From Desulfocarbo indianensis (GTDB lineage Bacteria > Desulfobacterota > Desulfarculia > Desulfarculales > Desulfarculaceae), in assembly GCA_001184205.1 (NCBI GenBank), contig LBMP01000005.1, forward strand, positions 124,001 through 188,000: DNA of 64,000 bases, read 5' to 3'. The translations under genes and the position numbers were made by a program. Of this stretch, positions 10,841 through 12,826 are shown piece by piece; the stretch's first letter is position 1; the number at the start of each line of letters is the position of its first letter. The notes under the pieces were generated by a model. It was not told the DNA's origin and searched no databases. It saw nothing but the letters and a program-made list of their open reading frames with translations.

Positions 10841-12826
10841 CTAGTCCTCTTCGCCCTCGCCTTCGTTCTGGCGGTCAAGCACCTGCTTCAGCTGCTCGCC
10901 CAGGTTGCTGGTGGCGGCCTGGGTGGTGTTCAGGTATTCGCTGTAGCTCGCCCGATCGGTTTCCTCTTCCAGGCGGCGCAGGCTCAAGCCTATCTTGCGC
11001 TCGCGGCGGGAGACGCTCACCACCTTGGCGGTGATGGTATCGCCCACGTTGAACATGCCCACCGGAGTCTTGATCTTCTCGTGGGAGATCTCGCTCACGT
11101 GGATAAGCCCCTCCACGCCCTCTTCCAGCTCCACGAAAACGCCGAAGTCGGTGACGTTGGTGACCACGCCGGAGACCTTGGTGCCCACCTGGTATTTTTG
11201 GGGAATCTCATCCCAGGGATCGGATTCCAGCTGCTTGATGCCCAAGGAGAAACGCTCGTTCTCGCGGTCGATGTTCAACACCACCGCCTGCACCTCGTCG
11301 CCCTTTTTGTAGATTTCGCCGGGGTGCTTGATGCGCTTGGTCCAGGAGATGTCGCTGATGTGGACCAGACCGTCGATGCCCTCGTCTATGCCGATGAAGA
11401 TGCCGAAATCCGTGATGTTCTTCACGCGGCCCTCGATGGTGGTGCCCACCGGGTATTTCTCGGCGATGACGTCCCAGGGATTGGGCTCGACCTGTTTCAT
11501 GCCCAGGCTGATGCGCTTCTGCTCGGGATTGATGTTGAGCACCACCGCTTCCACGATGTCGCCCACGTTGACCACCTTGGAAGGATGGCGCACCTTGCGG
11601 GTCCAGGACATCTCGGAAACGTGGATCAAGCCCTCCACGCCCTCTTCCACTTCCACGAAGGCGCCGTAGTCGGCCAGGCTCACCACCTTGCCGGAGACCC
11701 TGGTGCCCACGGGGAATTTTTCCGAGGCGTCGGTCCAGGGATCGGACTTGAGCTGCTTCAGGCCCAGGCTCACCCTTTCGCGGTCGCGGTCGAAATTGAG
11801 CACCTTGACCGTGATCTCGTCGCCGATGCCGAACATCTCGGAGGGGTGGCCCACCCGGCCCCAGCTCATGTCGGTGATGTGCAGGAGGCCGTCTATGCCG
11901 CCCAGGTCCACGAACACGCCGTAATCGGTGATGTTCTTGACCACGCCCGCCATGACGCGGCCCTCTTCCAGGACCTTGAGGGTTTCCGATTTCTTTTCCT
12001 CGCGCTCTTTTTCCAGGAGCGCGCGACGGGAGAGAACGATGTTGGAGCGCTTCTTGTTGAACTTCAGAATCTTGAAATCGAAGTTCTTGCCGATGAGCGC
12101 GTCCAGGTTGCGAACCGGCCGCAAATCCACCTGGGAACCGGGAAGGAACGCGGGCACCCCTATATCGACGCTCATGCCGCCCTTGACCCGGCCCACGATG
12201 GCGCCGGTGATCACGCCGTCGTCGTTGTAAACCCGGCTGATCTCGTCCCAGACTTTTATCTTGGCAGCCTTTTCCCGGGAAAGGATGATGGTGCCGTCGT
12301 CGTCCTCGGCCCGCTCCAGGAGCACGTCCACCTGCTGGCCCACCTCGGCCACCAGGTTGCCGTCGGGGTCCCGGAACTCCTCCACCGGAATCTGGCCCTC
12401 GGACTTATACCCGATGTCCACCACCACGTAGTCGTTTTCCACGGACACGATGGTTCCGCGGGCGACCTCTCCTTCCTGAATTGTGCGGAAGGACTGCTCG
12501 TAGAGTTGCTCCAACTGCTCCTGATCCAGGTCTTCCTCCTCAAGGGAAGCGGTCGGCTCTGCGGGAGCGGTCGGCTCTGCGGGAGCGGTCGGCTCTGCGG
12601 GAGCGGTCGGCTCTGCGGGAGCGGTCGGCTCTGCGGGAGCGGTCGGCTCTGCGGGAGCGGTCGGCTCTGCGGGAGCGGTCGGCTCTGCGGGAGCGGTCGG
12701 CTCTGCGGGAGCGGTCGGCTCCGCGGGAGCGGCCTGGGCCTGGATGTCGTCGGTTTTAGCCTCGGGAGCCTCGCTCTCGGACTGAGCCTGGGGGTTTTGT
12801 TCCTTGTCCACCACGTTCTCTACCAC
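10841..12826 (-). CDS. rpsA: 30S ribosomal protein S1 with repetitive N-terminal extension
   Basis: The 661-residue protein S1 binds mRNA on the 30S subunit. Six S1/OB domains follow one another from about residue 115. The later four are clearest, each with a DYGVFVDL/DFGIFIGI-type strand and a GLxHxSxxSW motif. The usual length is about 550-580; the excess is an N-terminal, low-complexity, acidic/Pro-Ala extension of about 105 residues. This includes ten PAEPTA hexapeptides encoded by an 18-bp DNA repeat. The GTG start has AAGG upstream. A good sigma-70 promoter lies at 12922-12950, between cmk and this gene. Confidence 0.96.
   Translation of the reverse strand: MVENVVDKEQNPQAQSESEAPEAKTDDIQAQAAPAEPTAPAEPTAPAEPTAPAEPTAPAEPTAPAEPTAPAEPTAPAEPTAPAEPTAPAEPTASLEEEDLDQEQLEQLYEQSFRTIQEGEVARGTIVSVENDYVVVDIGYKSEGQIPVEEFRDPDGNLVAEVGQQVDVLLERAEDDDGTIILSREKAAKIKVWDEISRVYNDDGVITGAIVGRVKGGMSVDIGVPAFLPGSQVDLRPVRNLDALIGKNFDFKILKFNKKRSNIVLSRRALLEKEREEKKSETLKVLEEGRVMAGVVKNITDYGVFVDLGGIDGLLHITDMSWGRVGHPSEMFGIGDEITVKVLNFDRDRERVSLGLKQLKSDPWTDASEKFPVGTRVSGKVVSLADYGAFVEVEEGVEGLIHVSEMSWTRKVRHPSKVVNVGDIVEAVVLNINPEQKRISLGMKQVEPNPWDVIAEKYPVGTTIEGRVKNITDFGIFIGIDEGIDGLVHISDISWTKRIKHPGEIYKKGDEVQAVVLNIDRENERFSLGIKQLESDPWDEIPQKYQVGTKVSGVVTNVTDFGVFVELEEGVEGLIHVSEISHEKIKTPVGMFNVGDTITAKVVSVSRRERKIGLSLRRLEEETDRASYSEYLNTTQAATSNLGEQLKQVLDRQNEGEGEED
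12551..12730 (-). repeat. Ten-copy 18-bp tandem repeat inside rpsA
   Basis: The unit GGTCGGCTCTGCGGGAGC (plus-strand form) recurs every 18 bp from 12551. Nine copies are identical and the tenth differs by one base (CTCC for CTCT). Each encodes one PAEPTA hexapeptide in frame, so copy changes lengthen or shorten the S1 tail without a frameshift. Near-perfect identity, including silent positions, points to recent expansion by slippage. Confidence 0.97.

Follow-up and report, generated by a model that had tools for sequence, protein, structure and literature searches.

The gene for ribosomal protein bS1 (rpsA) in the window, by which we mean the whole stretch of 64,000 nucleotides that was analysed, carries ten in-frame copies of an 18-bp unit close to its 5' end. 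The account that we favour, and consider probable, is that a single 18-bp founder (APAEP[S/T]) was recently amplified in tandem, and in frame, in a naturally disordered, acidic N-terminal arm of S1. The array is real and of a fairly ordinary kind. Judged by comparison with related bacteria, the acidic arm itself is not new to this S1; the relatives carry such an arm too, often lengthened by other repeats, and the array is a strong case of a recurrent process in which repeats turn over in an acidic arm that tolerates changes of length. Below we set out the evidence on the array, on the arm that harbours it and on the corresponding arms of related bacteria, and discuss what the arm may do.

The rpsA product scores 872.8 bits against the NCBIfam model NF004952 (cut-off 524) and 678.3 bits against TIGR00717 (cut-off 577), and its six Pfam S1 (OB) stretches are those of a six-domain bS1. 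It is the single full-length S1 of its genome, in which two other rows are weak matches over one domain. This genome is a Desulfarculaceae draft assembly that totals 5.11 Mb and is split into 333 contigs, one of which, of 465 kb, contains the window. The names among the relatives of this genome are Desulfarculaceae, Desulfarculus and Dethiosulfatarculus. A same-genus genome (G001) and the locus L044 are identical in their S1 frame up to the core, and on this ground G001 appears to be JdFR-95. The features discussed here are collected in Table 1. A frame of 629 aa that runs across the array on the plus strand was also considered and is taken to be an antisense shadow of the high G+C.

Table 1. 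Positions in the window of rpsA, its neighbours and the segments of its 5' region
Feature	Positions	Strand	Basis or context
rpsA, encoding bS1 of 661 aa with six S1 domains; GTG start codon	10841..12826	-	NF004952, Pfam S1
N-terminal arm (residues 1-104), acidic (net charge -22) and predicted to be disordered	12515..12826	-	
Array encoding residues 33-92, ten in-frame APAEPT/PAEPTA units of 18 bp	12551..12730	-	TRF and unit-by-unit reading
Variant first unit, GCG for GCA (silent), likely founder	12713..12730	-	5' Gln-Ala-Ala context matches the single APAEPS of the genus-mate
Predicted helix (residues 102-112) corresponding to the helix at the N-terminus of E. coli S1 that docks on S2	12491..12523	-	AlphaFold2 and alignment
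sppA	9920-10819		Downstream of rpsA; exceeds one model's curated threshold
cmk	12967-13638		Upstream of rpsA; exceeds one model's curated threshold
hisC	13642-14802		Beyond cmk; exceeds one model's curated threshold

The array is by far the top-scoring of the nine TRF rows in the window, called at 12548-12732 with a period of 18, 10.3 copies, 99% matches and a score of 363. Read unit by unit along the minus strand, the interval from 12730 to 12551 divides exactly into ten 18-mers; nine of the ten are identical in sequence (GCTCCCGCAGAGCCGACC), and the odd one, which is the N-terminal-most in the protein (12730-12713), has GCG in place of GCA, a silent replacement. In-frame translation gives (APAEPT)x10 followed by A, which equals PAEPTA x10. 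The region is thereby a near-perfect in-frame tandem array and a candidate VNTR or hypervariable coding repeat, its count of exactly ten units being as given by the draft assembly. The initial annotation, which had described a ten-copy, near-perfect 18-bp repeat in the S1 gene with nine identical units encoding PAEPTA in frame, is borne out on both points. It had also read the identity of the units as the mark of a recent expansion, and here the near-perfect identity, the rare codons that the units share and the one founder-like copy in a genus-mate all speak in its favour.

Chance is excluded as the source of the array, because the top TRF score among 2000 codon shuffles of the window's arm is 90 and because the units have rare codons in common. 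In nine neighbouring genes GCA accounts for 2.3% and GCT for 5.8% of Ala codons; GCT is present in all ten units and GCA in nine. Since these rare codons are common to the units, the copies all derive from one founder unit. Convergent selection for identical codons was rejected, as the chance of eight further units matching is ~1e-31 under local codon usage. The variant first unit is the likely founder, because in the genus-mate the matching Gln-Ala-Ala precedes a single APAEPS rather than an array. The candidate role of PAEPTA as a motif of the clade was likewise discarded: the doubled-unit pattern occurs in just one of the 98 genomes searched, namely the window's own, and there at the array locus only. 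These comparisons drew on collections with a single genome for each species.

The arm of 104 residues comprises 26 Ala, 22 Pro, 19 Glu and 11 Thr, with Lys at residues 8 and 24 only and no Arg before residue 114, and its net charge per residue is -0.21 compared with -0.047 for the rest of the protein. It is thus a low-complexity, Ala/Glu-rich terminal segment as seen at the ends of ribosomal proteins, though located at the N-terminus. In an AlphaFold2 model built on 25 sequences, residues 1-100 have a pLDDT of 43-52 in ten-residue blocks and are without secondary structure; they are predicted to be disordered, in agreement with the flexible Pro/Ala/Glu arm that had been proposed. The following block (101-110) reaches a pLDDT of 78. 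In the alignment, residue 3 of E. coli S1 stands opposite residue 103 of the window's S1, and the first 100 residues therefore constitute an arm that is absent from E. coli. Two further claims needed refinement. The array does lie before the first OB domain, but more specifically it ends approximately ten residues ahead of the S2-anchoring segment, on the free chain end. Furthermore, the array had been said to lengthen S1 by about 60 residues; while the array is real, the net gain over the genus-mate is approximately 24-27 residues rather than 60, because the arm of the genus-mate already measures 80 residues without a PAEPTA array. That 80-residue arm, together with the acidity of all 17 family arms listed, shows that the array did not create the arm. 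These 17 family arms are all net negative (-6 to -23) and range from 20 to 104 residues, the window's being the longest.

The wider comparison drew on 76 S1 regions retrieved out of 152 genomes with an S1 match; 64 of these regions were intended to represent one family each, and 12 were extra picks (L161-L172), several of them taken for their long open frames. Removal of duplicates among the S1 N-termini at 156 loci left 140 unique frames. Six were set aside, one as masked (L050) and five at a contig edge (L059, L110, L161, L162 and L163), and the remaining 134 form a sample that is mostly Thermodesulfobacteriota plus a few other phyla. Arm length has a median of 37.5 residues and ranges from 3 to 136, and six of the 134 arms, the window's included, have at least the 104 residues of the latter. 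A net negative charge characterizes 122 of the 127 arms that have 15 residues or more, with a median of -9. The remaining five comprise one neutral and four positive arms; two of the positive ones (L075 and L077) come from another phylum, and the other two (L164 and L171) are probably mis-called starts, since starts based on Shine-Dalgarno sequences gave shorter, acidic arms. Beyond residue 15 the median content of Lys/Arg is 4%, against 31% for Asp/Glu.

The comparison of S1 N-termini in relatives, which the initial annotation had advised, reveals a recurrent acidic arm, but the units of the repeats that it bears are nearly all different. In-frame DNA tandem repeats with a TRF score of at least 60 are present in 19 of the 127 arms, all with periods that are multiples of three. 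By comparison, codon-shuffled arms reached this score in 0.42 cases on average and in two at most (50 rounds), and none of 124 same-length segments of the S1 core did so. Nineteen is not a count of independent events, because some of the arms belong to close relatives (L051, L052 and L099, for instance, or L019 and L021), and three of the nineteen, L164 included, are supplied by the nine arms of the 127 that come from regions chosen partly for long frames. The array of the window ranks second in TRF score, after L051 only. Unit lengths are 93 bp in L051 and L099, 45 bp in L061, 27 bp in L037, 15 bp in L021 and L064, and 9 bp in L147 and others; L051, L099, L037 and L061 parallel the window array with long or many-copy repeats of other sequence. 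In related species of one genus, a homologous arm contains roughly two, three and four copies of an APESP unit. Differences between units within the arrays were assessed for 18 of the 19 repeat arms (L164, whose start looked mis-called, was left out) and amount, when pooled, to a pS of 0.109 and a pN of 0.075, with pN exceeding pS in L037. Purifying selection on the unit peptides was considered and is unsupported; as pN/pS within the arrays is mixed, we claim no selection on the unit peptide.

Low-complexity tails occur elsewhere in the same bacteria. The C-terminal tails of S2, the docking partner of S1, are acidic in all ten cases parsed among 17 family/order rows and in all six further members of the class. 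Those of L193 and L212 are acidic and of low complexity, and that of L193 contains a repeated Pro/Gln/Ala unit. The idea that the S1 arm and the S2 tail complement each other in charge was entertained and rejected, the parsed S2 tails being acidic as well. A similar repeat was sought in IF2 of the same genome, where the Ala/Pro/Glu linker has, by eye, no near-perfect array and mixes Lys/Arg with Glu. Within the window, a class II aldolase-like protein (19373-20767), which reaches the curated cut-off of none of the listed models, has an N-terminal extension rich in Lys, Ala and Pro, with which an imperfect 18-bp repeat (20656-20727) overlaps. The protein at 25042-26091, for which there was no NCBIfam match at 1e-10, combines an N-terminal hydrophobic stretch with a very long Pro/Ala/Lys-rich region. 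Because the Ala/Pro-rich stretches of these two proteins are Lys-rich, acidity is not the default of such tails in this genome.

How might such an array arise and persist? The copying most likely occurred by replication slippage or misaligned recombination. Because the arm forms a free end of the chain before the helix that docks on S2, whole-codon additions would leave the fold undisturbed. What seems to be retained is in-frame length change, disorder, net negative charge and a scarcity of Lys/Arg rather than a particular sequence, and it is for this reason that different relatives would refill the arm with different repeats. Tentatively, the arm may be a spacer or brush of a generic, acidic sort next to the site at which S1 docks on S2, on the mRNA exit side, and would there keep the chain off rRNA and mRNA; this function is a possibility to which we give distinctly less credence than to the origin and nature of the arm. 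A bolder version, in which an acidic disordered S1 arm at the S2 dock is selected across the Thermodesulfobacteriota and changes in length, as repeats are gained or lost, so as to tune initiation or RNA handling, with the window's array as one of the latest adjustments, strikes us as unlikely.

What speaks against a functional acidic arm is that neutral slippage in a tolerant tail would produce much the same picture, and five of the 127 arms fail to be net negative. That the arm is tolerated junk which inherited its charge from the founder is quite possible, and our confidence in this view overlaps with that in the favoured one, as the two have the origin in common and differ in function alone. 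It draws on the variation of unit sequences between lineages, on arm lengths of 3 to 136 aa and on a within-array pN/pS that is mixed and not clearly low; it has to contend with the 122 net negative arms, with the rarity of Lys/Arg and with the Lys-rich character of the Ala/Pro-rich stretches in the two other window proteins. A more active role for the charge would be autoinhibition, in which the arm either contends with RNA for access to the OB domains or keeps RNA away by repulsion, and arm length tunes the activity of S1. Acidic tails control nucleic-acid proteins such as SSB and Hfq, which offers a precedent, and a net charge of -22 across 104 residues adjoins OB1. However, RNA binding by OB1 and OB2 in solution is described as undetectable (PMC10123108), and OB3-OB6 lie at the opposite end from the arm, which renders autoinhibition unlikely.

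Doubts of another kind concern the DNA. The exact copy number could be a product of the assembly, the true array being longer or shorter, in a draft of 333 contigs in which a near-perfect array of 180 bp exceeds the length of common short reads; with the window inside a 465-kb contig and the frame intact, we regard this as rather improbable. Near-perfect arrays are generally prone to slippage and the APESP copy number differs across related species, so one could picture a tuning switch in which strains or cells differ in the number of units and translation is adjusted accordingly. On/off switching is ruled out because an 18-bp unit never shifts the frame, and the idea as a whole is highly improbable. 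Even less credible is that the array acts as an RNA or DNA structure, with a small GCTC...GAGC hairpin in each unit: the fold of the array RNA is only a little better than those of dinucleotide shuffles (z = -1.92), a weak signal that eight of 200 shuffles equalled, the unit sequences of other arms are unrelated, and there was no Rfam match in 9000-18000.

A clade-wide S1 arm whose charge is kept while its repeats are unrelated provides a clean natural test of whether composition or sequence is selected in the disordered ends of ribosomal proteins, and in the ten-copy array a series of lengths for that purpose is already at hand.

A close point of reference is E. coli S1, which begins at the docking helix and is without an arm. 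Its N-terminal segment is disordered in solution and docks on S2 as a helix (PMC4288201), and this helix is the anchor of S1 on S2 (PMC4288201, PMC10123108). The equivalents of E. coli Gln7, Glu10, Asp39 and Lys43 are retained in the window's S1 at residues 107, 110, 137 and 141. In contrast, Phe5 and Phe9 correspond to Leu105 and Tyr109, so that one aromatic residue is replaced; substitution of Phe5 by Ala abolishes the docking of E. coli S1 on S2 (PMC4288201). Leu at the Phe5 position was also observed in several relatives.

No description of a repeat-bearing S1 arm, and no paper on Desulfarculus S1, was found within the literature searched, of which some sources were represented in part. 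A Legionella table gives S1 a 261-bp unit in three copies (PMC2639597), which is taken to be the S1 domains themselves. Perfect protein repeats have been tied to disorder and recency (Jorda et al. 2010, cited in PMC6566611) and tandem repeats in proteins have been surveyed in a census (PMC7230257); the window array resembles the near-perfect repeats described there in combining perfection with disorder and recency near a chain end, while no specific tie to S1 arms was found in the passages considered. The S2 C-terminal tails share net acidity and low complexity with the S1 arm but differ in being C-terminal, and the S2 tail of the window's own genome is short and has no repeat array. Ala/Glu-rich low-complexity ends are known on several bacterial ribosomal proteins (PMC6821194) and are likewise terminal extensions, presumably at the ribosome surface; they are mostly C-terminal and S1 is not named in section 9 of that source, whereas the arm described here is N-terminal, Pro-rich and encoded by a near-perfect DNA repeat. 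Because such ends are known and the S2 tails are acidic too, the acidic arm of S1 represents a known kind of case.
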